Below the pieces are notes generated by a model. It was not told the DNA's origin and did no database searches. It was given only the letters and a program-made list of their open reading frames with translations. A stretch of DNA of 64,000 bases, taken from IMG/VR virus record IMGVR_UViG_3300043395_000420, positions 1 through 64,000 of that record; one strand, given 5' to 3'. Positions 7,490-42,700 of the stretch are shown here, one piece after another. Source of the DNA: a virus. The stretch's first letter is position 1. The number at the start of each line of letters is the position of its first letter. Both the position numbers and the translations under genes were made by a program.

Positions 7490-8482
7490 ATGATAAATTC
7501 TAGTTCTACTATTCTTAATATCAAGGATATTCCTACAGCATGGATATTTGAATACTATGGAAACCTTTCAGAGAAGTTGGTTGGACAAGATGTAAAAATC
7601 AAATCATTGTTTAATCCTAATGAAAGAACTCCTAGTTTCTGCATATATGTTTATAATAACTATTATAGATTTAAAGATTTTTCATCGGGTAAATTCGGTA
7701 CTGCGGAACAATTTGTCCAACAGTTATATGATATATCCTATGGAGAAGCAATAAATAAAATAGTATCTGACTATTCTAAGTTTCTTACTGATGGAAAAAT
7801 TACATCAGATATAGATTCATTTAAGAAACAAGCTAAGTATAAGATTACAAGTTTTACTAAAAGATCCTGGACTATATATGATGCACAATACTGGATGAAA
7901 TATAATATAGGTTCTACAGTATTGGATTATTATAATGTTATACCGGTTAGTAAAATAGTAATGGAAAAGGAAGAGGAGAACGATATAAGTAAACTTGATA
8001 TGACACTGCACATGTCTTACTTATATACAAGAGCTGATGGTACACCTTATCAGTTATACAGTCCTCTATCCACAAGTAAAAAGTTTTTAAAGGTAAAGAA
8101 TTATATACAGGGTACTGATCAATTGAAGTTTGAGAAACCTAATCTTATTATAACCAGTTCTTTAAAAGATATGATGTGTTTATCTACCTTTGGTTTTAAT
8201 GCAGAATTTGTTGCACCTACTAGTGAGACGGCTGTATTACCTAATGGAGTAATCACCATGTACAAAACTAAGTATGATAAGATAGTTACTTTATTTGATA
8301 ATGATGATGCGGGTAAAGCTGCAGCATTAAAGTATGAACTTATATATAATATACCTTCTGTAATACTACCTTTAAGTAAAGATCCATCTGATTCTGTAAA
8401 AGATTATGGTATGGATTATACAAGACAAACTCTTTATCCATTATTAAAAGAAGGAATTAAAAAATATGAGTTGGATTTATAA
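7490..8482 (+). CDS. DnaG-type primase with TOPRIM domain
   Basis: Makes RNA primers at the fork. The N-terminal part (residues 30-85) has the order of a DnaG zinc-binding/CHC2 domain (SLFNPNERTPSFCIYV, YRFKDFSSGKFGTAEQFV), but the zinc cysteines are gone. The C-terminal half is TOPRIM: LIITSSLKDMM near residue 221, TLFDNDDAG with Asp270/272/273, and DPSDSVKDYG near residue 303. The usual catalytic Glu of the first TOPRIM motif (x-E-G-x-x-D) is replaced by Ser, a variation I believe recurs in Bacteroidota phages. The length of 330 aa is short for DnaG and lacks a helicase-binding domain. Confidence 0.8.
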   Translation: MINSSSTILNIKDIPTAWIFEYYGNLSEKLVGQDVKIKSLFNPNERTPSFCIYVYNNYYRFKDFSSGKFGTAEQFVQQLYDISYGEAINKIVSDYSKFLTDGKITSDIDSFKKQAKYKITSFTKRSWTIYDAQYWMKYNIGSTVLDYYNVIPVSKIVMEKEEENDISKLDMTLHMSYLYTRADGTPYQLYSPLSTSKKFLKVKNYIQGTDQLKFEKPNLIITSSLKDMMCLSTFGFNAEFVAPTSETAVLPNGVITMYKTKYDKIVTLFDNDDAGKAAALKYELIYNIPSVILPLSKDPSDSVKDYGMDYTRQTLYPLLKEGIKKYELDL

Positions 8483-21919: not shown

Positions 21920-22075
21920 TTAAGATCCGCAATATAAACAACCATCGTCTTCATTATCATACCAATCGTTGTTTTTTTCCATTATGCGTTTAACCTCTTC
22001 GTTAATTTGTTCTTGTGACCAGGTTGGGTTCATAGCTCTGATCTGTGCTCTTAAAAAGTAGTAGTTTCCATCCAT
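21920..22075 (-). CDS. Tiny coupled protein with C-terminal CxxC, 51 aa
   Basis: Found by hand translation of the minus strand. The protein begins MDGNYYFLRAQIRAMNPTWS, has a helix EEVKRIMEKNNDWYD, and ends in an acidic patch then CLYCGS. Its ATG overlaps the stop of the upstream spanin-like gene by one base (TAATG), which supports translation. The C-terminal Cys-x-x-Cys could bind metal or be redox-active; nothing else points to a role. Confidence 0.55.
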   Translation of the reverse strand: MDGNYYFLRAQIRAMNPTWSQEQINEEVKRIMEKNNDWYDNEDDGCLYCGS

Positions 22076-22539
22076 TAGTTTGTGAGTATAAGTAGTAGTC
22101 CTAATATTAAGGTACTACAACCTAACCCAATATTCCAATTAATAGACTTAGAATGTTGCAATTTTAACGTATTATGTTCTTCAATAAACTTATTATGTAC
22201 TTCTAAGAGACTATTATAATTCTGAGCATAGACTTTTGCATCACCTATACATTTGTTATACTTTGTTGTTAATAACTTAAGTTCAAAGTTTTTGTCATCT
22301 ATAGCATTATTCAAATCTAGGATTATGCTATCCTTTAGAAGTATACTATTAGAACAATACTTATAGTCTATAAGTGCTTCAAGTAATACTTTCTCCTGAG
22401 CAGGAGTTAATATTACACCAGGATTACCATTAATGGTTAATCTTTGGGGAGTAAATTGTCCAAAGACTGTCAAGTTGCTTATCAGTAGCATACTTAACAA
22501 TAGCACGGTCATCATCACGTTTCTTTTTGTTTGCATCAT
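22075..22539 (-). CDS. Spanin-like protein with signal peptide and C-terminal membrane segment, 154 aa
   Basis: The N-terminus is a signal-like segment (TVLLLSMLLISNLTVFGQ) with a probable cut after FG. A coiled coil spans about residues 50-130, and a second hydrophobic segment closes the protein (CSTLILGLLLILTN). No lipobox cysteine is visible, so it is not a classical o-spanin lipoprotein. It begins inside the upstream 118-aa coiled-coil gene in another frame (110 bases of overlap), the arrangement of overlapping Rz/Rz1 spanin pairs. Likely role: link or fuse inner and outer membranes at lysis. Confidence 0.55.
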   Translation of the reverse strand: MMQTKRNVMMTVLLLSMLLISNLTVFGQFTPQRLTINGNPGVILTPAQEKVLLEALIDYKYCSNSILLKDSIILDLNNAIDDKNFELKLLTTKYNKCIGDAKVYAQNYNSLLEVHNKFIEEHNTLKLQHSKSINWNIGLGCSTLILGLLLILTN

Positions 22540-22786
22540 CTTTATTATTAAGTTTTTTAATATGTAATGCTCTTAGACTATCTACATGAGCAAGACTGTC
22601 ATGAGTAATCTTCATCTTTAAAGAATCAATAGTTAGACTATCAGCACTGAGTTTACTTTTGTAAGTAACAGCATCTTTGTGGTCTTTACCACAGCAAACT
22701 ATCTCATACATAAATACTGTTCCTACAATAGCAATCAGTACTAGTATGACTATTTCTTTAATTTGATACTGAGTCTCCTCCGTCAT
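22430..22786 (-). CDS. Rz-like i-spanin candidate, 118 aa
   Basis: A single N-terminal membrane segment (about residues 10-30, IVILVLIAIVGTVFMYEIVC) is followed by a long hydrophilic helix with repeating Asp/Leu/Lys and 'DSL' (SADSLTIDSLKMKI, HDSLAHVDSLRALH), fit for a periplasmic coiled coil. This is the i-spanin design. I choose the ATG at 22786; a frame starting from TTG at 22816 would also be open. The gene lies directly after the holin and overlaps the next gene out of frame by 110 bases, as in Rz/Rz1 cassettes. Confidence 0.6.
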   Translation of the reverse strand: MTEETQYQIKEIVILVLIAIVGTVFMYEIVCCGKDHKDAVTYKSKLSADSLTIDSLKMKITHDSLAHVDSLRALHIKKLNNKDDANKKKRDDDRAIVKYATDKQLDSLWTIYSPKINH

Positions 22787-23024
22787 TGTTAGTTGGTTTA
22801 TGGTGTTTCTTATCAAATATCTTCTCGATTACGGTAAGGCCTAGTCCTCCACCTGCAATTAAACATAATGCATCATACATAAACTCAGGGGTGATATGAT
22901 CATCATTTCTGAATGTAGCAATATATGCTAGTATAATAACATTTACTAATGTGAAAACAGCAGATACTCTCTTACTAGAGAGTTCTCCCTTTGAACTGAA
23001 CATATCGTAAAAGAACTTCTTCAT
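22758..23024 (-). CDS. Holin candidate, 88 aa
   Basis: Two hydrophobic segments (about residues 19-38, SAVFTLVNVIILAYIATF, and 50-66, ALCLIAGGGLGLTVIEK) with a short loop between, a charged N-terminus (MKKFFYDMFSSKGELSSKRV) and a hydrophilic tail with DGGDSVSN. This two-pass design with an adjacent cell-wall hydrolase fits a phage holin that forms holes in the inner membrane and sets lysis time. It overlaps the hydrolase stop by one base and the next gene by 29 bases. Confidence 0.7.
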   Translation of the reverse strand: MKKFFYDMFSSKGELSSKRVSAVFTLVNVIILAYIATFRNDDHITPEFMYDALCLIAGGGLGLTVIEKIFDKKHHKPTNNDGGDSVSN

Positions 23025-23569
23025 TAGAATTCTTTCAAAAGAGTATATGTAAATCTTCTGAATCCAGACTTCTTACATTTATCTAATAATTGAGCAAACT
23101 GCTTTGGATCATTAAGTACTTGACATCCCGCAGACCATTTGTCAATAAGTTTAGATACTATACTAGGATTAGCACGGTGGATATTGATACCAAATAATCC
23201 AGTCTCTGTTACTGCGGATTCTTCTGCTATATCATTCTTGTTACCATCTCTATATACAGTAACGGGTTTGCACTGAGTCAATGCTTCGTACTTACCTTGG
23301 TGCATACCAACTTGCCAACAATCATCCCATTGTCCGGGTTTAAGTAATGCTGCTCCTTTTGGATTAAGTAGGTTCTGTAACCAGTGAGTACCCGGATTAG
23401 TAGTACAAGTATACCATGTGATGTTATCTTTCTCAACTACACCAATAAGATCGTCAAACTGATTCTTAGCATTAGCATTAGATCTGATACCTATAAGATG
23501 AAATACCGGCCATGAATAACCTAGTCTTTCAAACTCTACTTTAAGTTCCTTTGCGGTATACTGTCTCAT
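23024..23569 (-). CDS. Candidate endolysin with a HxA...WSAGCQ motif, 181 aa
   Basis: The region FGINIHRANP followed about a dozen residues later by DKWSAGCQVL places a His and a Cys as in L,D-transpeptidase/YkuD-related or similar cysteine peptidase folds, where a conserved H and S-x-G-C sit close together. The N-terminal part has FHLIGIRSNANAKNQFDD and TNPGTHWLQ strands. No signal peptide is seen, so a holin would be needed for release, and one lies immediately downstream. I read it as the endolysin of a lysis cassette that cuts or trims peptidoglycan. The substrate bond is not certain. Confidence 0.65.
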   Translation of the reverse strand: MRQYTAKELKVEFERLGYSWPVFHLIGIRSNANAKNQFDDLIGVVEKDNITWYTCTTNPGTHWLQNLLNPKGAALLKPGQWDDCWQVGMHQGKYEALTQCKPVTVYRDGNKNDIAEESAVTETGLFGINIHRANPSIVSKLIDKWSAGCQVLNDPKQFAQLLDKCKKSGFRRFTYTLLKEF

Positions 23570-23570: not shown

Positions 23571-23990
23571 TTAATTAAATATCCAAAAGTGTATATCTCC
23601 TGTGATACGATTAGGTATTGTAGGATTTACATAAAACCTCAAATCATTTGTATTTGCTGTATCTCTTACCATTACTAAGTCAGATTTTAACTGAGTCAGT
23701 TCGGTAGTATTTGTAGGTACAATATGATAAAAAATTATGCTATTTTCATTAACATATGAGTTTTGTAAAACTATAGCTGTTCCAATATTCATATTAACAT
23801 TTTGAATAATACCTGCTTTTTTATTTAAAGGAACAGTAATAGTTGCAGCCGTTGATGATTGAACATCATATGTACCAACGGTAGGTGCAATTATCTCAGC
23901 AAGAGCATTCACGTGCCCGTATCTAGCAAGCAACGCATCTGTCTTTTCTTTTATATAGTCAGACAGTTTGTATATATTTACAAAAGCCAT
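23571..23990 (-). CDS. Small protein with shared N-terminal GHVN module, 139 aa
   Basis: Residues 1-34 (MAFVNIYKLSDYIKEKTDAL, then ARYGHVNALAEII) match the N-termini of the next two leftward genes upstream, while the rest, a beta-rich domain (AATITVPLNKKAGIIQNVNM), differs. A shared N-terminal module with divergent beta domains fits virion fibre, collar or decoration proteins attached to a common site. The gene is one base from the endolysin. Function unproven. Confidence 0.65.
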   Translation of the reverse strand: MAFVNIYKLSDYIKEKTDALLARYGHVNALAEIIAPTVGTYDVQSSTAATITVPLNKKAGIIQNVNMNIGTAIVLQNSYVNENSIIFYHIVPTNTTELTQLKSDLVMVRDTANTNDLRFYVNPTIPNRITGDIHFWIFN

Positions 23991-23991
23991 A

Positions 23992-24393
23992 TTATAATAC
24001 TATAAAATTAATCTTTAATGCTCCTGTTGTTGATGTTGTTGTAGACCAAGCAATGTCAAAACCGCCATCAACAACATTTACAGGTGCTGTAAATACTAAG
24101 TCTGCTCTATCTCCAATATTTGAATACTCTATACTAGCAATAACAACACTATCTGTTTTTACTCTATTGTTATCTACTCTAAAAGAGTTAGAACCAGATA
24201 ATGCACCAAACATAGTTATCTGTCCTACTGGAGCATTAATTTCTACAGGAGTAGTATTACTAATCAACTGAGTTACATACTCAACAGGAGTAACCTTTTC
24301 TGCAAGTTTGTTAACGTGTCCTACTCTTGCTACAGTTGCGTCAGAAGATTTCTTAAAATACTTCTTATAATTAAAGATGTCGATAAAAGCCAT
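23992..24393 (-). CDS. Small protein with shared N-terminal GHVN module, 133 aa
   Basis: Second of three neighbours sharing MAFIDIFNYKKYFKKSSDAT then ARVGHVNKLAEKV. After about residue 36 comes an independent beta-rich domain (TPVEINAPVGQITMFGALSG, SVVIASIEYSNIGDRADLVF) that could be a small virion surface fold. I see no enzyme motif and no signal peptide. It is two bases from the first copy, suggesting tandem duplication with rapid divergence of the C-terminal part. Confidence 0.65.
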   Translation of the reverse strand: MAFIDIFNYKKYFKKSSDATVARVGHVNKLAEKVTPVEYVTQLISNTTPVEINAPVGQITMFGALSGSNSFRVDNNRVKTDSVVIASIEYSNIGDRADLVFTAPVNVVDGGFDIAWSTTTSTTGALKINFIVL

Positions 24394-24411
24394 ATATTTA
24401 TTTTTTAAAGT

Positions 24412-25101
24412 TTATGCATTATATATTGGTAATATTAAATGAAAATAAAATTCAACTGCCGTATTAGTTAGCAAAGACTGTTTCGTTCTTTTTACAACAC
24501 CTGTTTGTACTACGTAATCAGATAAAACTAAATCAATAGATCCACTACTATAGCCTGTAACGGGTAATAATTCATAAGCTTGCATACTAAGACTATAAAT
24601 ATTTGATGCATTAACAGCATATGTAATCATACCATTTCTATAATAATCTTGTACAAAATTACTCATAGATAACGTAATATGAAAGTTACCACTACTAGGT
24701 TCTGTTATATTACAATCCCATTCAGCAGGAGTTTCAACATCAGCTAATGCTGTATTAACATTAATTCCTAATGCAGGTTTAGCTGTTCCATTATTTACTG
24801 CTAATTGTATTGTACCAATAACTTCATGATAGGGTACTGCAATACCCAGATTAACTGTAGAATCATCTATATAAGTAGAAGTTACTTTATAATTTTCATT
24901 AATAGAACTATATCTATCAGAATAGATTTGTACAGATCCTTTATATGGACCTTCTCCATTAATTGATATTTCATTAACTCCTCCGCCAGCACCTCCGGCT
25001 AATGCATCATATACAGCATTAACATGCCCAATACGTGCTACTTCAGCATCTGTACCTCTTCTAATATATTTCTTTAAGTTTTGCCAATTAATAAATCCCA
25101 T
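24412..25101 (-). CDS. Protein with shared N-terminal GHVN module, 229 aa
   Basis: Third and longest copy. I start at the ATG at 25101, which gives MGFINWQNLKKYIRRGTDAE then ARIGHVNAVYDAL; an in-frame start at 25131 adds ten residues with no counterpart in the paralogues. Beyond the module is a Gly-rich hinge (AGGAGGGVNEISINGEGPYK) and a long beta-rich part (KGSVQIYSDRYSSI, ISSEINENYKV-like strands, SLSMQAYELLPVTG). A hinge plus beta domain is typical of tail or fibre proteins. It directly follows the 1875-aa gene. Confidence 0.65.
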   Translation of the reverse strand: MGFINWQNLKKYIRRGTDAEVARIGHVNAVYDALAGGAGGGVNEISINGEGPYKGSVQIYSDRYSSINENYKVTSTYIDDSTVNLGIAVPYHEVIGTIQLAVNNGTAKPALGINVNTALADVETPAEWDCNITEPSSGNFHITLSMSNFVQDYYRNGMITYAVNASNIYSLSMQAYELLPVTGYSSGSIDLVLSDYVVQTGVVKRTKQSLLTNTAVEFYFHLILPIYNA

Positions 25102-25139
25102 ACTTTTTAATCTTACATATATAATATACAAAAAAATTC

Positions 25140-28100
25140 TTATCCTCCACCTTGCATGTTCCTAATACTTATAAAATTTTTAGTCGCAAGTATTGGATCT
25201 GTTTGTGTACCTGTAATACCAAAGAACTTAAATCCTGTATTAAGAAACTTAGGAGAACCTTCTTTTTGGAAACTATAGGGTCCGACATCTCTTACATAGT
25301 AAGCCTTGTCATCTCCTTGTGCTAAGTCAACTAGTTGTCCTAATAACTTAACAAGATTTCCCGCAGTTTGAGTAACAGCTAAACTCTTGAAAGTCAGCAT
25401 TTCAATATAGTTATTAAGACCTACTCCGGGTAAAGGTATCCAGTTCATTTGCTCTTGTCTAGTCTTTAACATAAGGGCTAACATACTATTTGACATATAA
25501 CCTCCTAGTTTAAAAGGGTGTTCTGGATCCTCAACTGTTTCAAATATGCCCATGTTCAGTGGCAATGCACCTGACTTCTTTCTGAGTTTTTCATACTTAT
25601 CTTCATCATCTGCATCAAATCCGAAGAGTAAAGCAATCATAAGACTCATACCTACTAGTATACCTGCTTCCATGATTACTTTAGCAAATGCTTGCTTTTG
25701 TTCTGGAAGAAGAGAAGAAAAAGACTTACCTCCTGTAGCAATACCTTCTTTTAATGCACGTATTGCTTCTATGTAATAACCAAGATATGAATCATTAAGA
25801 CCTACATCATATCTTGCTTTAGGATCAAGTAGGTTTCCACGGAATTGAAAACGGTTAAGTAACATACGTAAGAAGAATCTTTTTAAGAACATAATCTGTC
25901 TATAGAAAAAGAATCTATCTGCCTGAGAGTAGTCAAACTTACCAAATGCACCATTTACGTTATTAGATACAGCCTGTATTTTATTACGGTACATTTTAAA
26001 TTTAGATCCTCCTATACCCCATTCTGGATCAATACCTTCTCTTAATTGAATATTACCATCTTTAAGTTCCCATGCTTCTATGTATGGAATCATTTTCTTT
26101 TCTCCGTCAATAGTTATTTCTACTAACTGAGCATGCATCATAGCACCAAATAAACTTAAGTTGGCATTAAGTTCTGTCCATTTACGAGTATTAGTAAGAA
26201 GATTGGCTGGTTCTAGTAAATCTTTAGCAAAGGTTCTTGTTAGGTTTTCTCCTAGTTTTTCTTCAAATCTTCCGGATGTTGGATCAAATATTTCTGTGAG
26301 TTGTACATCCAATGACTTAGGTCCATACTTATATATCTGAAAAGATATTTCTGCCATAGTTTTGTTAGACCATATTGTACCCTTTGCGTAGTCCCTGTTA
26401 CTATAAAATCTTCCGGCTGCTCCTTCAATTACTGACTGTATTCTTGCACTTAAAGAGTTACGTACTGCAGACTCTATGTTTACAGCAAAGAATCCTAATG
26501 CAGATGTCTTCAGCATTGATGTAGCTATACTGTTTGCTAGTTTACTTTCAGAGAATATACCCGTATTATATTTACCTTCAAACTCTCGTTCTATAAATGC
26601 GTTAATTGCCTGGGCTCTAGTAGATAAACCTTTTTTGTTAAGGGGTTTTTCTATGGCTCTATTAATCATGTTTTTCTTTTGGTACTGATTAATAATATCT
26701 AGTTGTTCTGGGTCATTAACTAGATTTTGAAGAGTTCTTGCTACAGGACTCATCTCTCTCAACTTAGCATTACGTTCTAGAGAAAACATATATCTCATAG
26801 TACCCGTTAGTACATCTAATGAGGTGTCATCTAATGATAAGTAGTATTTACCTTGAATAGGTATTTTGTTTACTTGGTCATCAAACATATCTAACTTAGC
26901 ATATTCAATACGTTCTTGTGCATTGAATCCGCGTTCTTGGTCATCTGCTGTACGTTGAAAGAATTCTTTTACCTTTTGTGAAAATGTAGATATAGGATTT
27001 TGTTTTACTAAGTTACCGGCTTCGTCTATAAAGTCTTTATTTTGTACTGCTTCTAGGTTGGACATACGGAATCTTGGTATCTCTAAACCTAAACGTTCTT
27101 CGGGTGCTTTATCTTCTTGTAATTCTAAATGTAAATCTATTAGTTTCATTAATAGATTATATGTATTAACATCAGAATTCTTAAGTTTAAAGAACTCATT
27201 GTTTACATATGTGGTATCAGGAGTACCATCATCGTTACGTACATCAAGTTTTGGTAGCCAGTTGTAACCATCCCAGTTTGCTTTAGTAATATCTCCCATT
27301 GCTATGGCTTGACGGATACTAACTTTTTCTGTCATGTATCCTGCTGCAGGATCACGTTTAACTTGATATGTAAAGTATTTACTAGTTGGTATTCCGGGTA
27401 TTGTTCTCTTACTACCGTCAGGTTCTGTGATTACAGTAGACTCATACATGTTAGAATCGGCCGGTCTAGTTATATTCCATGCTGAGGTTCTAACATATCT
27501 AGGACTAGATAATCTAAACTGTTTACTATATACATCTTTTAAGATATGATTAGCATCAAACCATTCTCTGAATTCTTTAGAGTTTGCACGCATCATATCT
27601 ACAAATGCTGTATTCTCTAGTATAATGTCATCAATGTTTGTTGCATCAAATTCTCTAATGTTTAATGCCTGAAATGCTTGTTGAATATCATCTCCAAAAT
27701 AGTTATAGAAACTATTCATTATATCTAAGTAATCCGAGGTAGGTTCTGTTTTTTGTAACTCATCTAACTCTGTATACTTAGTAAGTATCTCTTCATTAAT
27801 TTTTGTTTCTTCTACAAGCAGTGCTTTGTCTAATGGATCAAGAGACTTATTACGTCTGTTTAATACTAGTTTTTCTAGTTCCTCAAGTCTATCTTGTTCA
27901 TCTATTGTAAGTTTTGCAGTAGTATCTCCTCTTCTATATTTTATTCTTTGTGTTACAAGTTCTTGATACTCTTTTTGTTCTATCTTAGTAAGACCTGTTC
28001 TTGTAATAGATTTTTCTTTTTCTTCAAGGATTTGCTCATCCAGTTTTTTAATTTCTGCAAGAACGTCTTCAGGCATTTCCAAACCTGATGTTTGATTATC

Positions 28101-30767
28101 TTTATCCTTATATCTGCCTAGTAATAGATTACGTTTATCATACAGATCTAATAACTTATCATTGCTTATGTCTACGGCAAGTCTTAGTAGTATTTCTTTT
28201 TGTCTTTCTTTTAGGGTAACAAGTTCTGCCATGATTGCAGCACGTCTTGTATAATACTCAGGTTTAATTCTAACCCTAGTATTATTTTTTAACCATTCGT
28301 CTACCTTAGAATCGTAAAGATTTGTACCTGGTTTAATATTATTATCAATTAACTGCTGTACAAATTTCTTATATGCACTTTGAAATACTCCGTTTAGAGG
28401 TATCTCATCATACATATCTTTTGTCTTGGCGTTGTATTCCTGTAGACGTAATGCTATTTCTTTTTCTTTACCTGTCTTTTTGTTACCGTTAGAATCTATC
28501 AATGAAGATAGTTCTTTCTTTTCTCTTTTATATTCTTTTAGTTCATCTAGTAAGTCTTGATTATCTTCATCCTTACTAATGATACGTTCTATGTCTCTTA
28601 TCTTAGTATTAATTGCCGTAAGTCTTTCACCGGCTTCTACACCAATAGCATCTTTTTCTAATAAGAACTGACGTTCGTAGTACTTATCTGTATACTCTGT
28701 ATGAAAATACTTACGTTCCCATTTAAGTTTATCCTGAATAAGTTGTCTTACTACAGAATAGTCTCCGGATTTTGCTGCTTCCTCTTTTGCTTTTTCTATT
28801 TCATAGTTCTTTTGATCTATGTCTTTTTTATAATTCATCCAAGGATTTGCATATGTATAAACCTGCCTTTCCTTGAACTCGTTGTTTTCTCTACCACCTA
28901 CTGTATCTCTAAATGTAACTCTTCTACCAAGTTCTCCAATATTAGTTGGATTAAATCCAGCAGCATCAAGAAATGGCTTAAGAGCAGTTGCATACTCATT
29001 GGCTCTTCTTTGTGCCTTAGTCTGCATGTCTATAAAGTTATTCTTTACGTATAAAGAAAACCCAAAGATTACGGGGTCTTGATTATTCATGTACCCTTCT
29101 AAGAAAGAATTAAGAGCATGAGCATCTCCGAGTTCTCCTTTAAGAAGAGACTCTATCTTTTCAGGAGATAGTTTTAGTTCTTCCCATTCTCTAGTACGTG
29201 CTTTAATTACTTGTTCTGGAGCACCTTTCCTAGTAAGATAGTCTATTGCTGCAGAATACTTAGCATCTATCGCTTCCTTGAGAGGGATAAGAGTATCATA
29301 AAGTATTTCGGAAACACCATCTGTATAAATACTATTTGTATGTACTTTACTTTGTACCATCCTACTACGAATCTTTGTGATAAGTTCGTATAAGGGACTG
29401 TCACTATCTATACCTGCTTTAGTAAATGTCTTCTCATATTCTTTAATAAGAGACTCCATAGTACTAAGTAATGAGTTAAGATAGAACGCAGTTTTTAAAC
29501 TGTCTTTGTTATTTACATCTTTAGATATTTCTCTTAGTTGGTCATTAATACGTTTAACCATAACATCCAACTGCTCTATACTATTAATAAACGCGAGCAT
29601 TTGTGCACGTTCATAGGTAGCATCCTGCATTGCTTGGTCTATACCGTTTTGGTAATCCTTTAGTAAAGATCTAATCTCATTAATATCTTTACGTTCATAT
29701 TCATTCTTAAGTTCCGACAGGGCCTCTCTAAACTCCCGGTCATTCTTCATCTTCTTAAGTATAGATTGTACACGGTCATATAAGCTACTAATAGAACTCT
29801 GTAGTTTACCTTCATTACGAAGAGTAATCAGGTCATTAATAAACTTATCATGGTCAGCCGCATATGCCGCAAAAGAGTCATCAGTTACAAGTTCTTTATT
29901 AAAGGTAAACTGGTTATTGGCCTCAAGCATCCGGGCTAATTCAAGTATAGAAGTAGATTCAGATAAGGAAGATATGTCAATACGTTTACCAAAGATCTTA
30001 CGTAGTGCTTGTTTAATAGCATATAATATTTTCTGTACTATGGATGAGAGATTGGGAGAAATATTTTGTTGTAGAGATTTTAGGTTGGCAATGTCAGTTA
30101 ACGTTTTTACTATCACCTCCTCTGCAAAGTATTCTGTCCCTTCTGCTAATGACGGATGAGATGCCTTGACATCTTCAATAATCTGTGGGTTGGTAGCAGA
30201 TATTTCAGCATATAGTTTATCAAACAAAGATTTATTTTCTTTTGCTAGGGCCCTTACTATAGGATGACAGAACTCATGGAATACTGTCTTAGCCGTTACA
30301 AAGTCATTTACTAGATATACTGTATCTCCTAGAAAGAATCCGGGTTTACCATTTCTATACTGGTTTTCCGGTGCTAGATTAGCAGTTATTGCTGCTGCTT
30401 CTTCTGCTGTAACCATTCTATACTGTATACCAAGGTTACGTTGTAATGCTTCTGCTATTTCTATTATTGCAGATCTAGATGACAGGTCTTTAAATACTTC
30501 TTTGTTTACTACAGGTTCTGCCATTACATGGTAGTCAGGTCTTCCGGCAACATATTGTCCGAAACCATCATACGTATCTGTAACTACTTGTTTATCAGAT
30601 AGTTCTAATGCATAACCTTGATCGTTTAGTACAGGTAAGAACTCTTCAGGGGTAGGTAAACTATCCATGTTACGTTCTTTAGCATAGCGTAATGCCTTGT
30701 CAGCAAGATGCTGTCCAAACTTTTCTTTTAACGCGTCAAATTCCGGGGTGTTTCTACTGCAAGCCAT
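25140..30767 (-). CDS. Giant virion-cargo-type protein with zincin motif, 1875 aa
   Basis: Very long protein of the kind that crAss-like phages pack beside their RNA polymerase. Near the N-terminus a metalloprotease-type motif TVFHEFCHPIVR places His164, Glu165 and His168 in an H-E-x-x-H pattern, preceded by GFFLGDTVYLVNDF. Residues 280-1000 are mostly charged coiled coil (Lys/Glu/Leu-rich). The last 450 residues contain NSLSARIQSVIEGAAG and a hydrophobic segment GILVGMSLMIALLFGF near residues 1700-1715 that could insert in a membrane. The protein ends NMQGGG. It starts by sharing one base with the stop of the RNA polymerase gene, so both are probably made together and packed together. Confidence 0.8.
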   Translation of the reverse strand: MACSRNTPEFDALKEKFGQHLADKALRYAKERNMDSLPTPEEFLPVLNDQGYALELSDKQVVTDTYDGFGQYVAGRPDYHVMAEPVVNKEVFKDLSSRSAIIEIAEALQRNLGIQYRMVTAEEAAAITANLAPENQYRNGKPGFFLGDTVYLVNDFVTAKTVFHEFCHPIVRALAKENKSLFDKLYAEISATNPQIIEDVKASHPSLAEGTEYFAEEVIVKTLTDIANLKSLQQNISPNLSSIVQKILYAIKQALRKIFGKRIDISSLSESTSILELARMLEANNQFTFNKELVTDDSFAAYAADHDKFINDLITLRNEGKLQSSISSLYDRVQSILKKMKNDREFREALSELKNEYERKDINEIRSLLKDYQNGIDQAMQDATYERAQMLAFINSIEQLDVMVKRINDQLREISKDVNNKDSLKTAFYLNSLLSTMESLIKEYEKTFTKAGIDSDSPLYELITKIRSRMVQSKVHTNSIYTDGVSEILYDTLIPLKEAIDAKYSAAIDYLTRKGAPEQVIKARTREWEELKLSPEKIESLLKGELGDAHALNSFLEGYMNNQDPVIFGFSLYVKNNFIDMQTKAQRRANEYATALKPFLDAAGFNPTNIGELGRRVTFRDTVGGRENNEFKERQVYTYANPWMNYKKDIDQKNYEIEKAKEEAAKSGDYSVVRQLIQDKLKWERKYFHTEYTDKYYERQFLLEKDAIGVEAGERLTAINTKIRDIERIISKDEDNQDLLDELKEYKREKKELSSLIDSNGNKKTGKEKEIALRLQEYNAKTKDMYDEIPLNGVFQSAYKKFVQQLIDNNIKPGTNLYDSKVDEWLKNNTRVRIKPEYYTRRAAIMAELVTLKERQKEILLRLAVDISNDKLLDLYDKRNLLLGRYKDKDNQTSGLEMPEDVLAEIKKLDEQILEEKEKSITRTGLTKIEQKEYQELVTQRIKYRRGDTTAKLTIDEQDRLEELEKLVLNRRNKSLDPLDKALLVEETKINEEILTKYTELDELQKTEPTSDYLDIMNSFYNYFGDDIQQAFQALNIREFDATNIDDIILENTAFVDMMRANSKEFREWFDANHILKDVYSKQFRLSSPRYVRTSAWNITRPADSNMYESTVITEPDGSKRTIPGIPTSKYFTYQVKRDPAAGYMTEKVSIRQAIAMGDITKANWDGYNWLPKLDVRNDDGTPDTTYVNNEFFKLKNSDVNTYNLLMKLIDLHLELQEDKAPEERLGLEIPRFRMSNLEAVQNKDFIDEAGNLVKQNPISTFSQKVKEFFQRTADDQERGFNAQERIEYAKLDMFDDQVNKIPIQGKYYLSLDDTSLDVLTGTMRYMFSLERNAKLREMSPVARTLQNLVNDPEQLDIINQYQKKNMINRAIEKPLNKKGLSTRAQAINAFIEREFEGKYNTGIFSESKLANSIATSMLKTSALGFFAVNIESAVRNSLSARIQSVIEGAAGRFYSNRDYAKGTIWSNKTMAEISFQIYKYGPKSLDVQLTEIFDPTSGRFEEKLGENLTRTFAKDLLEPANLLTNTRKWTELNANLSLFGAMMHAQLVEITIDGEKKMIPYIEAWELKDGNIQLREGIDPEWGIGGSKFKMYRNKIQAVSNNVNGAFGKFDYSQADRFFFYRQIMFLKRFFLRMLLNRFQFRGNLLDPKARYDVGLNDSYLGYYIEAIRALKEGIATGGKSFSSLLPEQKQAFAKVIMEAGILVGMSLMIALLFGFDADDEDKYEKLRKKSGALPLNMGIFETVEDPEHPFKLGGYMSNSMLALMLKTRQEQMNWIPLPGVGLNNYIEMLTFKSLAVTQTAGNLVKLLGQLVDLAQGDDKAYYVRDVGPYSFQKEGSPKFLNTGFKFFGITGTQTDPILATKNFISIRNMQGGG

Positions 30768-33700
30768 TATATACTACAACTTAAAATATCATTTAATATG
30801 TCATTAGTTACTTCGGTGTCTGATACTACCTGGTCTCTTTGAACTTTTTCCGACATCTCTACAGAACCTTTAGCAAATACTCGTGGTAAAGAATTAGGAT
30901 TTATATAACCAAATGCATCATACAGCCTCTCAGACAAATATACGAAAGTTTTAGGTGCGGATTGTGGATTTGCCGGTACATTTTCTTCAACAGAACCTAT
31001 AACCATTCCATTTTCTTCCCATCTATTAATCATAGACTGACCCATACCTCTAAAATTAAATCTTAATACTTTGTCAGGATTAAGTTTCATTTTTTCTACT
31101 AGGGCCTGAATAGCAGCATCTATCTGTTGAATGTTATAGTTATACTCTTCTTCAGTTTCTTCTACTAGTAAACCTGAAGGTGTAATAGTATTAGTTGTTT
31201 TATTCAATGTTCCCTTTGGTTTTCCTGTTTTAGGATCTACGGGTATTGCTAAGAACTTAGTAGGTATTCCAAAATAGTTATCTGGTCCTAGACCTGCTAA
31301 AACGGCTGATGTTTTATTTAGATCTGTAGTATTAGCAGTACGGCCAGGTTTTGCCATTACGGTATCAGTTACAAATATTACATTAGGATTAGCCTCTTTA
31401 ATCTTTTGAATATCAACAGGTTTAAGATTATCAGGAGTTAATGTAAAATCATATACAGGTATGCCGGTTCCGTTTTGTAAACCTACCATGAACCCATTAG
31501 GATTAGATGCTTGTGTAGGTTGAGTAATAGTAGACTTTGATACTATTTGCTGGTTAGTACTTACAGAAATTTGAGTAGGTTTAGACCAAGTACCAATAAC
31601 TTGTCCATCTACTGTAATTTCAGAGTAATTATATCCAGCTTGTTTCATAGCATCATATAATCTTTTTTCTCCTGTGTTATAGTCACTAGCGTCAGTATAG
31701 GCTTTGTTATCTGTAAGAATAGTAGCACCTGCTTCAACAGCCTTAATAGCTTCAGCTATTGTTCTATCTTGTTGAGTTTTTTGCTGTTCTTCAGTACCTC
31801 TTTTACCACCAATAGATACAAAAATTACATCATTAACTGAATAGTTACCTGTATTAGCAAAATTACCAGCTTGTTCTCTATATAAATCTGTAGAACTGCC
31901 CTTTATACCTTCTCCAAATCCTATATATTGTGTAGCTATGCTGGCTTTAATAACTGCTTTTTTATCAGCAGCTTGTATAGGTTTTACCGTAAATATATTT
32001 TTCTTAGTAAATTTATCACCTGTACTTACAGGAGCTTGTGATTGAGATGGTTGTACTACTTCAAATTCTATAGCATAAGGATAATTACCCACATGTCTAT
32101 CTGTAACAGATTTAACCCAACCTTCTTTTTGCCAAGTAGCATCTTGATACTCTTGTGTAAAAGGAGATACTTTAGTAATTCTAGTATAAACTTGTCTACC
32201 TGTATTATCAGTCATCCGGATAACTTTACCAACTAAGTCTTCAATTTTAGAAAGATTATAGTCTTTCATCATTCTAGAAACATCAGTCTTAGCTCTAGTA
32301 GTTCTAGTTCTATCTCCAGAAATAATAAGATCCATGGTAGATTTATCTTTAAACTGTGGTTGCATAGTTCTTGTTTTCCACACATCTCCTTCTTTATATT
32401 TAGAACCATCGGCAAAATTTTGTTCAATAGCTGGTAAACTATCAGCTACAATAAACTCATTACTTACAGGTTCTTGTGCAGGTTCTTCACCAACAATTTC
32501 TGGAGTACCTAATTTTTGACTAGTAGCAATATAGACCATATCAGTTGCTCTAGATACAGCCACATATTTTAATTCTTGCTGTACGTTTTTGTCTTTGAAA
32601 CTGTTAATAGTATCATCTAATATCAATACTTTAGTATAAGTACCTCCTTGAGATTTGTGAATAGTATGAGCATACCCGTAGTCAAAAGTTTGATTAAATA
32701 AAGTTTTACCATTTTGAATAACAGGTTTCATTGAAGTTATGGCATTTTCATAGTCAGATGCTTTTTGAAAATATGATGCTGCAGCACGAATATCTCCATC
32801 TTTTTTTAACCTAGCCCCTGCTTCTCTTAAATCTTTAATAGTTTTTGATAATCTTATTAGTTTAGAATCATCATCATTAACATCTGCTACAAATATTACT
32901 TCTGGTTTTTCATCGGCTTTTCCTAATAGATTTTGAATAGTTACCTTATAACCTTTAAATTCAACTTTATCACCCAATAAATCTAAAGTTACAGTAGAAG
33001 GTTTTATATCTAATACTTCATAGTCACCACTATTCATTATTTTATACTGACCTGTTCTATAATTTTTATCAAAGTTACTTCTTCCCATTATCAGGTCTCC
33101 GACAACAAGTTGCTGTTGAGCAGCATCTCCAAAAAGTAATTTTCTAACTTCTTTATTTTTAGCAGTTACTACAGCATTAGTAGCAGATAAAATTCTAAAG
33201 TATAACTTATTTTTTGCAAACTCTGGACTTAAGAAGTTTTCTTTAACAGCTTCGTTTACAAATGTATTGTTATCACCATAAACTACTCCTATACCATTAA
33301 CTACTTTTGTTTTATAGTTAAGTTCTTTACCATTACGCAAATTAGTAGACTCTTCTAAAATAGGGTTGTCTCCTGTTCTTTCTACCTTAGTTAATTGCAA
33401 CTGGGTTCCTTTATCAAAAACTTTTGATAGGTTATCTTGTCCTACAGGTCTTAACTGTGCAGGATCTCCCATGTATATAATTTTAAGATTAGAATTTTTC
33501 TTTTTTTCTTCTTGAATAAAAGCAAATAAACCATCAGCAACCATTGATGCTTCGTCTAGTATAAGCACGGTAGACTCGTCTGGTTTTAATACACCTTTAT
33601 TTTGTTTAGCAAAGTTTAGTTTTGCAAGATCATACTCTTCTTCAAAATTAAAATCAGGATTTAAACCAAACAATGAATGTAATGTATACACTCTTACATC

Positions 33701-36700
33701 TGGATTTTTAAGTTTTGTTACAGCATTTGCTCTATTAGTAGGAGATGTATAAATAATAGAATCTAATGATACCCTTTGCAGGTATGCATCAAATATTTTC
33801 ATAATACTAGTCTTACCTGTACCGGCATATCCTTTTAAAGTAATCTGATTATCATAAGCAGCAGGGTTTTTATAAAACTTTTCTAGTTCTAATAAAGCCT
33901 CTGTCTGTTGATCATTTAATTTAAACGGTGTGCTAATAGTAACACCGTCACTAAATGTCATAGTATTAGCAGGTTGTGATTGATTAGGACTAATTTGACT
34001 AGACTTAGGCTGTCTGAATGGTTGTTTATTTTGAGGATCAATATTTGGATTATTATTATAAGCAGCTAATAATTTTTCTTTTGCTGACTTTTTACCCTTA
34101 TAGTTTAATACATCAACACCAACACCGTTTTCTACTTTTATTTTATACATTGCTCCAAAGTACTTATAGTCATCTTCAAAAGATGTAGGTGTTTCTTCAA
34201 ATAATTCAAATATGCTTTCTTCTTCAGTTTCAAACTTGTAACCTGTTTTCTCTAGAATATCTACAAACTCTTTAATAACAGCATCTTTTTTAGAACTAAG
34301 TACAACATTTGCAAAGTTTGGATCATAGAAAGTTCTAAATCTCTTCGCAATATTACTTTTTGCTTGAGAGTTAGTTCCTATAAATATCTTTCTATACTGA
34401 TCAAATAATAGTTCTGTTAGTTTATTATTTGAATTAGGTACTGCTTCTAACTGAGTTACGGTATCAATAAACTTACTAACTGGTTCAGCTAGTAGTTCTG
34501 ATATAACTTTGCTATCTGCAATACTTAATATACTAAATGTACTATTAGGATTACTTCCACTTTGTAAGTATGCAACAACATCAAATCTATTAAAGAACTT
34601 ACTGATATTCTCAGCATCAATGGCAGATATACCAAACTTATCTTGTAGAATACTAGGGTTCTTTAGTTCATTTAAGTTTTCAGAATATAGATTCTTCTGG
34701 TCAATTTCTAATAATGTATCCCTAAACCGTAATGTATTTACGTTTGCTTTAACATAACTAGAATATGATGATGCCATACTAGAGAATACATCTACTTCTA
34801 ATGCAGATAATAGATCATAGTATTCTGTAATCTTTTTGAAAGCCGGATTAGATACAATTTGATCATACTGATATGCATAAGAGTTATTTCCGGTAAATAT
34901 CCAATACGGTAGATTTATATTATTAAGAGCATGATTACGTAAATATGTTTCATACGCCCAAAGTTTTACAGTTTCCTTATTAATGGTGGTAGATTCACCC
35001 TTACGTAGTAAAGTTTTGTCTAGATATTTTTCAGATAGTTCTTTTTCTATCTTCATGTACTCTGCACTTAATGCAACAACAGAGTATTTATAGTTAGGTA
35101 ATGCTCTTAAACTCTCTCTTTCATATAAGTATTTCTTGTACATATCTGCTTCATTTACTCCGGTAAACACATTAGCAGGTAAAGGAGCAACATCTGCATC
35201 TAAATACTGTAACTCATTGGAATAGAACTTGTTATATAAGTTTTCAGCTATAGAGTTTTGATCAACATATATCTTTCCGTCTTTATAAATAGCTGCTCTT
35301 CTTGCATAAGGAACTGTAGCAACATCTAACTCAGAGTTTAATACATAACTTCTATAGTGTTTATTACTAGGTAATGTAAAGTACCAGTTATAAAATATAT
35401 AAGGACTAAGTTGCTTCTTGAAATTATCAATTACGGAAGCCTTATCAAATGTTACATTTACTCTAGTTTCTCCCATTCTCATACCACTTATATAAGATTC
35501 AATATTGGGTTTAGCAAAATATGAATTTATAGAAGTTGAGTTACTTAAAGGGAAGAAAGGTTCGTATAAACCAATCATAAACTCTTGTATTTTAAAACTA
35601 CCGATAGGTGAGTTTTTAATAATACTTTCATAAACATCAGGATCCAAACCTTTAAACTGAGATGCTTTAATATCTTTTCTTAACTGAACTCTAGCATCGT
35701 GTAAAGAACTACTTCTTGTAGTATCAAATTTAGTAGCCTGCTTAATCTCTGTTAAACCTTTAGACATCTCCAGGATTTCCATAAAATGTAAAAATACATT
35801 TCTATCAAAATCTGTATATACGTCTTTGGTTTTATCATCATTAAGGTTATCTAAATTATCTTCTAATGCCTTTTCATTAAAATAGTTTTCATCAAGATTA
35901 GTAAGAGCAATACGGAAATAGTCGTATAGTTTATTTTTAGCAACTCTTACTTTACCATTAATAGCATTGTATCTATAGTTCTTTGAGTTATCAGGATAAA
36001 AACTTTCTTCATTTAATCCAAATCCGTATTTAGAATTTTCTCCAAACAAAATACTATCTCTAGCATCAGTATTATGCTGATTAAGTTCAGACTCTTTTCC
36101 TAGTACACTAGAGAAAGTTCCTTTTCTAGAACGAGCATCTGTAATATACTCACGTATAATTGGTTGTGATAAGAATAATACAGCTTGGTTAATGGGTACC
36201 CCGGTTTGAATTAAGAATAATAATACAGGAGTAAGTTCTTTATTACCCTGTAAGTCAAAGATCCATTCGTCTTTTTCTACGTCAACCCAACCATTAATCA
36301 ACTGGTTAAACAAGTCAGATATCTTATAGAAGTTATTTTTATCATAACTATGTGATAATGAGATTCTTTGTTCTCCATTTACATTCATAGTATTATGAGG
36401 TAATAATAACACATTACGCATTAAATCACCTGCTTCATTAATTACTTTTACATCTGACATGTAAGCACCGATACGGTTAAATACTACGTTAAATGTATTA
36501 TCTACTGCACCAATACCAAGGGCTTGTTTACCTACAGAGTTATACTCTAATTTAGCAAGGTTATACAAAGGCTCATATATACGAGTAGGAGAGAATCCGT
36601 TTGGTTCTCCGTTAAATCTTTTCTTTGACGAGTATACACGAGTTTTGTCTCTGAGTTTTTCTGATATAGGTTTAACAATAGTTGTACTATTAGGGGTAAT

Positions 36701-39700
36701 TAAACTTACAAAGTTTTCAGGATCTAATATAAGATCTTTAGTAGCAAGTAATAACTGGTTTTCATATGCAGCCTCATTATCCATTTTCTTAATGAAGGCC
36801 TCTTCTGATGTAGCAAGATTATAGTTTTTAAGTATTTCTATAATTTCACTTTCAGTATAACCCATATCAAACCATTCTTCTCCTAGAGCAGCAGTAAGTA
36901 TTGTATTTAATAGTTTATTAGACTGTTCAATATCAGTAGAGAATCTTTTAACAGTAGGACTTACATCACGCGTTAAAGCTCTACGTACAACATCTTTATC
37001 ATATACTAAGTTACCTAGTTCATCTACAGTACTATTAATTACTTTAAACTCTTCAACTTCTATTGCTTTAGATTTTAAATTTTGGTATAGTTCTTTAAGG
37101 GCTGCTTCACCTCTAACATTTGCTATAGTTAGTTTTGAATTACCTTTTAGACCTTCCCATCTTAGTACTGGCATTTGAATACTAAGTTTATCAATGTCAA
37201 AGTCAGCACCAGACTTAGCAACAATTTCAGTTGCTGGTATGATCATATTACCTGCTTCTTCTGGTAAGAATTCTGCAACATGCATTACTTCCATAGAGTT
37301 CAAACCTTGTACAGGAATACGAACCCCTACCATAGTTATCATGTCACGGTTTTTAGATAACCATTTCTCATCTCTAATAATACTGTTTAGAGCATCTAGT
37401 TTAGAAATGTTTTCTGCTTTTGCTTTTCTTGTAACCTCGGGTAAACTAAGTAACTTTTTAAAATGACCTTGTATAGATATTTTAACCTCCATACCATTAC
37501 CAGGAGTATAGAACTTCAAATCATTTGTACCAGAGTACTTTCTTCTTTCTTCTTCTGTTGCATTTCTAAACTTACCTGCCTTTTCAAATCCAGCACTTGA
37601 TGCCTGAATTAATGCTTCTCCGGTAACTTTTTGACGGATTAATCTTTTATTTACTACAGCCGTTAAAAGTTTTTCTATCTGTGAACTAAAGTTAGACAGA
37701 TCAAGATTAACCATAGGGGCACTCTTTAATGCATCTATGAACTCTAACTCGTTATCAGATATTTCTTGACGGGTAAGTTGTTTTTCTATAAAGTCAATAA
37801 ACTTAGTAAGATCTTTAGGACCTTTATCTGTCCAACCTAATTCTTCAACAAGTTGTTTTTTCTTAAACTCTGTAAGTTGTTTTAGAGCAGACTCATATCT
37901 TAAAATCTTAGTATATAGTTTAGACTCTGATTTTTTTACAGATTCATCTTTTATAGCATTCCATGCATCATATCTTTCTGTTAAGTCTGTAATTTCTGGT
38001 TTAAAATCTACAGGTACTCCATTTTCAAAAGAACCTTCTTCTACAAGTTTACGTAACTGAGTAGAGAATATAATCTTCTCTTTAAACTCTGGCGCAACTT
38101 CTACTTGGTCTTTTAAATAATCTAAATAGATAACGTTCTTGCTAAAGGTAAATTCTGGTTCATTTAAAGCCAACCAACCTTCTTTGTTTGCATAAAACTT
38201 ATCAAAGTTTCCATCATTAGTAACAGTTGCAAGTTTAGATCCTGATGCAAATACAGCATAATCTATATCTTGCTCTACCATTTTATTATGTAGTTGTTCT
38301 AGTTTAGTACCTTTAACTACTGTAGGGATTAATGGCATTAATGAAAACTTATGAAATGCTTCTACAGGTAAACCGGTTGTAGCCAATGTTCCCCAGTACT
38401 GCATCTTTTTAATAGGAAAGAAGTTTGCAATATCTTCTGCAGAGACATCATCTCCATTTAGAATTCTAACATATAACTTTTCATGAAGAGTTGTCCATTT
38501 ATCTAAACCTCTCATCATCAATCTATAAGCATCAAAACTAATCCATCCTTGAGCATCTCCTTCTTTCATTCCAGCATATGCATCATCAAATATATTATCT
38601 ATATTTTGCATTGCTTTATTAATAGTATCCTGAGACGCGTTGGTTTTAGCAAGACGTTTTCTTTCTTTATCTTTTGCTGCTTTCTTATACTCATCAATAT
38701 ATACAGATGTGCTTACTACATCGGCTAATACTGCAGTATTAAATGTACCATTATAATCACGTTGACCTACAGTTGTACCATCTGCTTTTGTTTTGGGTCC
38801 GGTGTACCATGCAGATTCGGCATACTTACCTTTCTTAGCAGGTTTATTTACATAGTTTTGGAAATGTATGTCTGTTCTAGGAGTTTCTCCAGTTGATCCG
38901 ATACCGGCATTACGTTTATGATACTCTTCTTTTGAGTGATTATATATACCAGGATCTCCATAGTATACAAGACCTGTTTCAATATTATGTAATAACTGAT
39001 TAGCTGTATATGCTTCTATCAATTGACGGCTAAGTTCTTCTCGAGTATACTCTTTTGTGTCTCCTACAATTTTTAATATATTAGGAGATAATAAATATCT
39101 AGAATCAAAAATACCTTCTTTTTTAAACTTATCTATTACTTGTTGATATTGATTCTCTAAGTAACTATTTACCTGATTCTGATATGTATTAGCAAACTTT
39201 TCATTAGTATTTAATAGGTTCTTGAAATCTGCTGCTGTGGTAATAGTTCCCTTATCAATAAGGTTATAAATTTCTGTTTTTTGATCTTCGGTTAAGATAT
39301 CATCAAACATGATAAACTTAGAACCTACTTCTGCAAGAGTTACAGGTTTACCTTTCTTTTCATATAAAACTATATTTTTAGCATCAGGATCTGTTTTTGC
39401 CTTATGAATTCTTTCAACTTCAGAACTTAAATAACCCATGTATGCAGCAAGAACTTTAGATTTTCCTGTACTAGATGTTGGATCTTTTGATGCAAACATT
39501 TTAGGATTAACATAGTGCTTTGATCCATCTGCGTGTATAATCTGATATAGGAAAGTACTACTCTTACCTGCGTGACGTGTTGCTTCAGATGTACCATAGA
39601 TCATCATCATATAGAAGTCTTGTAGCATTTTAGTAGTCATATCCGAGTCTGATGACTTAAGACCTACTAAATCTATTTGCTCTCCTATACGCATCTTTGT

Positions 39701-42700
39701 GCCGTCCATATCAAGAATATTAATTCTTGCATTTAAAACTTTACCGGTAGCAGTTACACCTTGGCGTTTAATTTTTTCAGGAGTACTCATGTCAAAAAGA
39801 ATGTTCATGAGCATACTGTTTTGCATCCAAGGATTTCTATTCAATGAAAGATTATTCATTATGTAAATAGGCATACCATTTACATTCTCTGTATTGTCTC
39901 TTACTAAATCTTCATAATTAATAGCATTGTTGATACTATCTGTTTTTCTGGTAATTGTGTTGGGTAATGAGTTTTCATACTTAGTTTTACCAGTAGTAGT
40001 TGTAATTGTACTATTAGAAAAATCTCCTGTCCACTGTAAATATAAATTACCTAATGTAGTTTTAAAACCTGTAAAAGGTTGAAAAGTAGATTCTTTATAC
40101 TGAGATTCTTGTTTTAAAAAGGCTTCTCTTAGAGACTTATCTTGTACAAGTTTATCAAATGATTTATCAAGTAAGTCTGTTACTCTTGTAAGTTTTATAG
40201 GTTCTGCACCTGGTCTATTTAATTTTAACCAGGTATTAAATGCATTTATTGCTCTTACTTTATTTTTTAAACCGTTGATTTCGTACAAGTTACCGTTTTC
40301 TTTACTAGACAAAGCATTCTTAACAACACTTAATTCTGGCATATATAAACCAATAGCCTTTAAAAATGTAATAGGATCTTTTGAAATTACACTAGTAGAC
40401 ATGTATAGGTCTGATGTAAGTTGTTCAATATTAATACTTACAGCCCCTGTATCAGATGCCTTTACTCTATAAGGTTCTGTTTCACCAGATCTTGTAAATC
40501 TAGAGTTAAACAACTTAAATACTTTACTGCTTTCACGACTAGCATTTCCAGGACGGATTGTTATATAACTTATATTACCCTTACTGTCTTTAGTTTGCTC
40601 AATATCTAAGTTTACAACATTAATTCTAGGTAAGGTAAACAGTTTATTTATTTGTCCCCACATACTGTTTTCTAACTCACCTTTAATATTATCAGGATTA
40701 CCAACCTTCTTTAAGAATGCTTTTACAATAGGAAATAGTTCTTCTACTTCCTTTAGTTTATCATAAATTTCTTTAGGGTTACGGGCCCCTTGTGTAATAT
40801 TTATTAATAAGTTTTGTGCAGTACGTGCTGGTACCATCTTAGGGAAACCTAAGTCATTCTTCTCAACCTCTCCATTATCATTATATGCTATTAATGTAGA
40901 CAATGTATAAGATAACTTCTTGTCTATCATGTTATTAATAGAAACTTCATTTCCGGACTTATCAGCATATTCTGATCTAGATGTTGTATTATCGTCTTTA
41001 TCAGCCATGTCTGGTTCAAATGACTGGATATAGTTTTTTTCATAGTAACTAAGGATTGTTTCTCCTTCTTTAGGATTCATAGGATCCCCGAAGTTGTCTA
41101 ACATCCATGTTGCTAAATCTATACGGCTTTTTATTTTAATCTTTCTTTTTTCTGCAGCCTTCTCATATTTTTCTTTTAAACTCTCAATATGGTTTACTAG
41201 CTTTTCCTGTACTTTTAAATATGCTGCCTTACGCATTGATGCCTCAGATATAATACCTATAGTTAAACCTTTAGTATTATACTCATCATTAAGGTCATCA
41301 ATACTTTCTGACATCAAACCATTCATGCTTTTCATGATAACAGCAGTGTCGGATAATGATCTGTTTTTAATTTTATTAAGACCGGTTTCTATAAATACAG
41401 CATCTGGTTCAAAGACCGGCTCTCCTAATTTACCTACAGCAAGTTTTTCAAACATCTCTGCTACTTTAGCATTTGCTGTATAGTCTGCTTGGGTTTCTCT
41501 AATAGTTGTGTTACTAAATAAATACTGTAATAACTCAAATATCTTACTGAAAATCTCTGCAATAATACCTTTGCTCTTGGAGTACTTACCTTTTCCACCA
41601 CGTAGCATGTGTTCGCGGAACTGTTCTGCTAACCATTCTTCTTTTTCTAACTTGGTAGCATTTTTAAATTCAACAGTTTTACCGTTATAATTTTCAAATG
41701 ATCCTTTCATTTGACCAACTGCGTTGTAAAGATCTTCTCTTTGTTTAGCAGTTAAAAATATTTGAGAAAATGCATGCCATGCCTCATGGTATAAATCAGA
41801 AGCATCTGCCCCTTGCCATAAAGTAATACCTGCTAAATTCCAATGTGCTACTACAGAAGGATCTGTATTAACTGCATCAAACATTACTGATATCGGTACT
41901 ACATCTGATAACATTCTACCATCAGCAAGTCTGATACTATTATACCAGGGTAATGCTGCATTAATAACATCTTGAGATGACTTAGCAGTACTTGGTTTTC
42001 TACCTGCTCTTAGTAACAAACTGTCATCTATAAGATTATTTTTCTTGATTGTATTACTTGCAGATTGGGTTTTAGTTTCAGGTTTTACTTCAGGTATTTT
42101 CATACCTAAACTTTCTAAAGCTCGTTTATTAATTTCGTTTTCATAATCTGCTGTTGTGGTTGTGCCAGAAACAGATTTATCAAACTCAGTTCTTGAAAGT
42201 TGAGAATGTTGATATTCATGTTCTATAACAAAAGACTCCCATTCTTCATATGTTTTAAACATATCTTCAGGAAAGGCATTTGCACTAGAACCATCTTTTT
42301 GTATGCGGGGTGTTGTCCAGGCTTTACTTTCAAACTTACTTTTTAATACTGGTTTATTAACGTATATGGTATTATTAGTGCTATTATACTGTGCTCCACC
42401 TGGTTCTCCTGTCTTAGAAGTTATTGCCTTTTCTATAATAGGAACACCTTTATAATTTTCTTGAGTACTTTTTGTAATTTCTTTTTTAGTTACTGTACCT
42501 GGCATGAATTCTAAATAAGCATTCATTGGTACAAAGTCTCCATTTTCAACTTTATTTGCTACATAAGCATGCTGTCTTATAAATTCACCATAAGGAATAG
42601 TATCAATTTTTGCAGTATATGTACCATCAGCGTTTTGACGTACATTACTAAATGTACGCACGGTTGTCATATTATTTTTATATAGATATAGACCGCCTCC

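Follow-up and report, generated by a model that had tools for sequence, protein, structure and literature searches.

A shared N-terminal module with exchanged bodies in three consecutive genes of a crAss-like phage: candidate head fibres

Introduction

Few known phages are as abundant as the crassviruses. In phi-crAss001, pockets at the centres of the capsid hexons hold the N-termini of two head fibres, gp21 (residues 1–38) and gp29 (residues 1–58), leaving their small C-terminal domains exposed, and residues 1–26 of the tail-fibre protein gp22 dock on the tail hub (PMC10172136). According to the same study, homologues of these head fibres are missing from most crassvirus groups, in which unknown proteins may take over their task (PMC10172136). 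The C-terminal domain of gp21 has a relative in gp8.5, the head fibre of phi29 (PMC10172136). Tail fibres are typically built from an N-terminal anchor and a swapped C-terminal domain (PMC10684548), and T4 Hoc, according to work cited in PMC13370021, binds the capsid through its C-terminal domain.

Here, we describe three consecutive genes in a 64,000-nucleotide stretch of viral DNA (positions 1 to 64,000 of IMG/VR record IMGVR_UViG_3300043395_000420; hereafter, the window). Like gp21 and gp29, their products combine a short N-terminal part, which in the crAss001 proteins docks on the capsid, with a small C-terminal domain, and they too come from a crAss-like phage. The genes adjoin an endolysin-like gene, much as the crAss001 gp29 gene immediately precedes that for the L,D-carboxypeptidase/transpeptidase gp30 in the lysis region. 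Unlike gp21 and gp29, the proteins described here form one to three tandem paralogues with a single kind of N-terminal module, which has no detectable sequence similarity to the crAss001 fibres. The module profile found no match in crAss001 or in Leptolyngbya phage Lbo-JY46, and gp21 and gp29 therefore do not carry the module. Conversely, the window genome matched neither the family of gp29 (PF25641, Head_fiber_dimeric, HFD; crAss001 control E 1.2e-34) nor that of gp21 and gp8.5 (PF11133, Phage_head_fibr, HFT; crAss001 control E 1.9e-15).

Results

The virus is a crAss-like phage remote from cultured gut members by sequence

The window is part of a viral record of 93,245 bases. We assign the virus, on sequence similarity, to the crAss-like phages, remote from the cultured gut members, because its terminase is about 25% (24–26%) identical to those of crAss-like phages, its head-and-packaging genes (terminase, portal, capsid and virion proteins) match PHROGs, and the nearest capsid of an isolate, that of Lbo-JY46, is 28% identical. 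In addition to homologues of the crAss-like terminase, portal and capsid, we found a DFDID motif, which we take to be a mark of the virion RNA polymerase giant, in a giant protein of 4419 amino acids. The phage collection searched held no near-relative of this virus at the DNA level. A similar D[FY]DIDKL motif occurs in two giants, both on the minus strand, as GADFDIDKLSIQMP in the 4419-amino-acid protein (30767–44026) and as NNDYDIDKLQVVLP in the other (57894–63998), as if there were two RNA-polymerase-like catalytic loops.

Three consecutive proteins share an N-terminal module

The three genes follow one another on the minus strand, separated by gaps of 18 and 1 bases (Table 1). The first 34–35 residues of the three proteins align without gaps, and 11 positions are invariant (M1, F3, Y12, D18, A19, A22, R23, G25, H26, V27 and N28). 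Any two of the modules are identical at 16–17 of 35 positions, a level reached by none of 100,000 composition shuffles (shuffle maximum, 12), and a degenerate 36-nt pattern has exactly three matches in the window and none in shuffles. An independent module HMM, trained only on non-orthologous modules of other phages, with the window sequences and their orthologues left out, matched exactly these three ORFs among the 1131 six-frame ORFs of the record (next best E 0.62). An orthologue of protein 3 (L009:4522-5205) is 68% identical.

Table 1. Positions in the window of the three module genes and the features that flank them.
Feature	Position	Strand	Evidence or remark
Fibre-like protein 3, 229 aa from ATG: module and ~190-aa body	24412..25101	minus	ORF and module HMM
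Fibre-like protein 2, 133 aa: module and ~95-aa predicted beta-sandwich body	23992..24393	minus	ORF, HMM, model
Fibre-like protein 1, 139 aa: module and ~100-aa body, divergent member of the body-2 cluster	23571..23990	minus	
Protein 3 module, residues 1-35	24997..25101	minus	HMM E 1.5e-16
Protein 2 module, residues 1-35	24289..24393	minus	HMM E 3.8e-24
Protein 1 module, residues 1-35	23886..23990	minus	HMM E 2.8e-13
Endolysin-like gene, directly downstream of the module genes	23024..23569	minus	phrog_3000 E 9e-37; phrog_33083 (endolysin) E 3.4e-20
1875-aa giant, directly upstream, other edge of the variable locus	25140..30767	minus	
Conserved AT-rich promoter-like element TTTTGTATATTATATATGTAA, 21 bp	25113..25133	minus	11 bases before first module gene

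The initial annotation of this DNA had reported a GHVN module at the N-termini of three consecutive proteins, placed between the polymerase-region giants and the lysis region. The independent HMM, the shuffles and the 36-nt pattern agree in confirming the module, and the placement is as described, with the 1875-amino-acid gene on one side and the endolysin-like gene on the other. The accompanying statement that the C-terminal parts share little is true of pairwise comparison, in which bodies 1 and 2 have no blastp match, but not when relatives are included, since these two bodies are then joined at E<0.01 into one divergent cluster. Body 3 differs from both and is longer.

The endolysin-like gene is 83–97% identical in relatives and forms a conserved edge of the variable locus; 12 relative loci have the module genes between it and a homologue of the 1875-amino-acid giant. 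Ahead of the first module gene, TTTTGTATATTATATATGTAA recurs with 0–2 mismatches in 11 relative loci, and a search of the window at up to 3 mismatches gave no second match. Weaker copies, with 4 mismatches, stand ahead of two other genes, one being the gene before the capsid gene and the other that at 76870–77427 of the record; weaker copies are placed on the minus strand at L038:11267 and L037:17458. The element looks like a promoter of virion genes, and perhaps it is the late promoter of this phage group. Because the TTG start at 25131 preferred by the ORF tool for the protein 3 gene overlaps the element, translation probably begins at the ATG at 25101. Behind the endolysin-like gene lie three ORFs (22075–22539, 22430–22816 and 22758–23024, minus strand), one small and membrane-protein-like and the other two overlapping, in an arrangement like that of a holin with overlapping spanins; family searches with them gave no match.

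The module recurs in related contigs and its bodies have been exchanged

About 33 further proteins of related viral contigs start with the module, fused to at least eight body types. Finding these relatives took degenerate DNA patterns together with the module profile; protein 3 alone, used as a query against viral contigs, gave no match. Searches of isolate phages returned chance matches only, bacterial genome contigs gave 15 pattern matches with no convincing module by HMM, and PDB sequence searches with the module, the body, the capsid and a possible auxiliary capsid protein yielded nothing meaningful. The first 17 records found carry one to three module copies each, normally adjacent, a pattern that fits tandem duplication of the module genes. 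Distant members of the clade bear the module on an Lcl_C domain (L044) or on DUF5122 with tail-fibre PHROG matches (L033), and one module-bearing protein of 570 amino acids has tail-fibre PHROG matches. In L016/L023, L044, L049 and L051, the module genes have fibre-like neighbours and are placed at a distance from the capsid gene. Every searched module-bearing record that reaches a capsid gene matches the capsid family of this phage strongly, including the distant records with other bodies, and in the contigs searched here the module is limited to one phage clade. A match of csAssE-Sib to the L044 body was rejected as evidence of the module, its alignment beginning behind the module. In L023, a 78-amino-acid protein (2197–2433) joins the module to a short end, FADNAAALFGGLQVGELYSTPTGEVRIVV, with no beta domain; the idea that this end is the gp21 C-terminal domain was dropped after inspection of gp21.

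Comparison of close relatives provided direct evidence that bodies have been exchanged behind the module, with breakpoints inside it. L020 and L021 are 92–100% identical from the last part of the upstream giant across the leader and gene 1; in gene 2, identity is 84% into the first codons and about 50% in the body, and it rises again towards the endolysin gene. L020 and L030 show the reverse arrangement, with about 42% identity upstream and 62–78% in the module, and then 90–100% from approximately codon 30 across the body into the endolysin gene. The suggestion that the bodies are exchangeable and evolve by swapping is thus borne out in the DNA of two pairs of relatives. Clustering the bodies of 36 proteins gave 22 groups at E<1e-10, 15 at 1e-4 and 8 at 0.01, and modules that are 88–97% identical carry bodies without blastp similarity. 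The locus therefore has the make-up of a mosaic fibre, in which the N-terminal part is conserved and the C-terminal bodies are exchanged, and the lysis genes stay conserved while the adjoining bodies swap.

Body 2 is predicted to be a fibre-type beta-sandwich

The model of protein 2 (mean pLDDT 75.8) has helices at residues 6–12 and 18–34, followed by beta strands, with the body forming a beta-sandwich; confidence for the module residues is only about 53–71. A model of protein 3 built from two sequences was unusable (pLDDT 35). The predicted fold of body 2 matched 39 viral models at E<=0.001 (best E 3e-9), with fibre-type proteins among them. These matches are mostly uncharacterised phage proteins of 86–1033 residues, the few named ones being collagen-repeat, YadA-domain and K1-lyase C-terminal proteins, and the fold matches also include tailspike C-termini. 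In the PDB, Foldseek matched body 2 to the R1 pyocin fibre and to the Helix agglutinins, which are H-type lectins, with probabilities of 0.96–1.00 but weak E values of 0.008–0.07, none of them below 1e-3. For the H-lectin fold itself, the probability was 0.96–0.99 but E was 0.05–0.07, which is weak, and Pfam lectin families gave no match. As modelled, body 2 resembles the Helix agglutinins and the foot of R-type pyocin fibres in being a beta-sandwich, with TM-scores of 0.39–0.57 to smaller domains and 12–13% identity. Of the beta domains proposed in the initial annotation, that of body 2 gains support from the model and from the fold matches to phage fibre domains, and the fold suggests that the bodies may bind the host or glycans. 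The body-2 consensus is 43–44% identical to hypothetical proteins of the cyanophages KBS-S-2A and MED4-184, whose genes come immediately after that for the coat or major head protein and whose N-termini differ from those of the module proteins.

Module genes and looser variants lie behind the capsid gene

In the record of this virus, the capsid protein is encoded at 84348–85976 and a candidate auxiliary protein at 77517–78857. A module gene immediately follows the major capsid gene in L029 and in L031/L032, and there precedes a homologue of the gene at 83246–84262 of the record. The capsid-adjacent and endolysin-adjacent slots hold the same protein families, because the body from L029 groups with the window's body 2, and that from L031 with L018b and L022a. 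The capsid family was matched by more than 550 contigs, and we assembled a capsid-centred sample of 80 loci with 6652 six-frame ORFs. In 56 of the approximately 70 loci with the same capsid, the slot downstream of the capsid gene is empty and the next large gene follows at once; fibres would therefore be optional or encoded elsewhere. The genes that are inserted behind the capsid gene often encode small proteins with a looser N-terminal motif (ARMAHLN, ARMSHLN, PRFAHLN or ARLAHLN), followed by another domain. A scan of the 6652 ORFs for Rx[GAS]H[VIL]N gave eight matches (L078, L090, L104, L107, L109, L151, L152 and L154), and in every case the motif lies 136–836 bases behind the capsid gene, without an intervening large ORF. 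Because the eight come from about five lineages, they are not eight independent events. Motif and position are all that connects the GHVN module with the AHLN/SHLN variants, and a tblastn search of phages with the capsid-adjacent protein of L152 returned nothing.

Discussion

We suggest, with moderate confidence, that the module proteins are capsid-docked, plug-in head fibres with exchangeable bodies. The products of the three genes would be small fibres on the virion of a crAss-like phage, and we infer their presence in virions, their docking site, their oligomeric state and their ligand. The module, with two predicted short helices and ARxGHVN in the second, would act as a peptide that docks on a conserved site of the particle, most probably on the capsid, and the bodies would be exchangeable, outward-facing beta-sandwich tips, probably lectin-like. 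Because all of the genes start with nearly the same ~100 nucleotides, homologous recombination could break within the module and import a new body, leaving docking undisturbed, and tandem copies would give one phage one to three tips. The virion docking peptide proposed in the initial annotation is thus partly supported, through its gene context, which points to the capsid. Reading the GHVN module as the head-fibre docking peptide of this lineage is the simplest account, since the genome lacks both crAss001 fibre families and its genes are placed like that of gp29. A head or lysis neighbourhood, which for crassvirus head fibres is a supporting rather than a strictly defining trait, is where the module genes were found.

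The module proteins are a new family within a known design. Bacillus phage phi29 gp8.5, a small capsid fibre protein, is alike in kind, and no sequence relation between it and the module proteins was found. T4 Hoc displays binding domains on the outer capsid, as we propose for the module proteins, and differs in having its anchor at the C-terminus. Mosaic tail fibres and tailspikes share the constant anchor and the swapped body, which in their case binds receptors; here, unlike in those proteins, the anchor is only about 34 residues long, the paralogues are in tandem, and the genes lie in a capsid or lysis context.

The main rival explanation keeps this architecture and has the module dock on the tail, at the collar or hub, so that the proteins would be short tail fibres or receptor-binding proteins. 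We rank it first among the alternatives because anchors with swapped bodies typify tail fibres (PMC10684548) and some distant module genes (L016, L044, L049 and L051) lie among fibre-like genes; the docking of gp22 on the crAss001 tail hub provides a precedent (PMC10172136), and tailspike C-termini and pyocin fibres are among the fold matches. The repeated position directly behind the capsid gene and the occurrence of body homologues behind coat genes in unrelated phages speak for the head instead, and we regard tail docking as rather unlikely. Adjacency to the capsid gene, together with the small size of the proteins and the cyanophage body homologues beside coat genes, would also suit a role as capsid cement or decoration in stabilising the head, with body variation unrelated to ligand binding. 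Neither the exchange of unrelated bodies, Lcl_C and DUF5122 included, nor the optional presence of a gene behind the same capsid gene is predicted for such proteins, and we give this explanation very little weight. The least probable account is that the proteins are lysis-associated or secreted accessories whose module serves the endolysin/holin/spanin operon rather than the virion. The genes do precede the endolysin-like gene almost without a gap in the window and in most relatives, but homologous genes adjoin the capsid gene in records without a detected endolysin homologue (for example, the 126-kb G016), the module also occurs on the 570-amino-acid protein with tail-fibre PHROG matches, and the lysis genes are conserved while the bodies are swapped.

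The module is a searchable candidate for the missing head-fibre component of a large lineage that lies outside the gut phages in culture. Its locus marks where such phages change the proteins that they display, and the docking question is reduced to one short peptide and one capsid. More tentatively, and with rather less confidence than in the head-fibre reading itself, we propose that, in a large environmental crAss-like lineage, an N-terminal helix with Rx[GAS]H[VLI]N may be a universal capsid plug, such that any body fused to it would become a head fibre, with its gene in a dedicated slot, either after that of the capsid or ahead of the endolysin gene, and with exchange by recombination inside the plug.

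Other genes share the position behind the capsid gene. In L151, the gene at 7634–8275 directly behind it has ALARLSDVNAIVDQIN at its N-terminus, with ARLSDVN as a possible variant of the docking motif in which D replaces H, and a second motif gene follows. Genes of about 68 amino acids lie directly behind the capsid gene in L103 (1717–1926), L107 (7674–7895), L109 (7673–7894) and L117 (7646–7894). They have in common a small domain like AVGVVYVNTAALVIYISTGTSSISDWRQIWAD, which bears a loose likeness to the N-terminal portion of crAss001 gp21 and to the body domains of the short L049–L051 module proteins.
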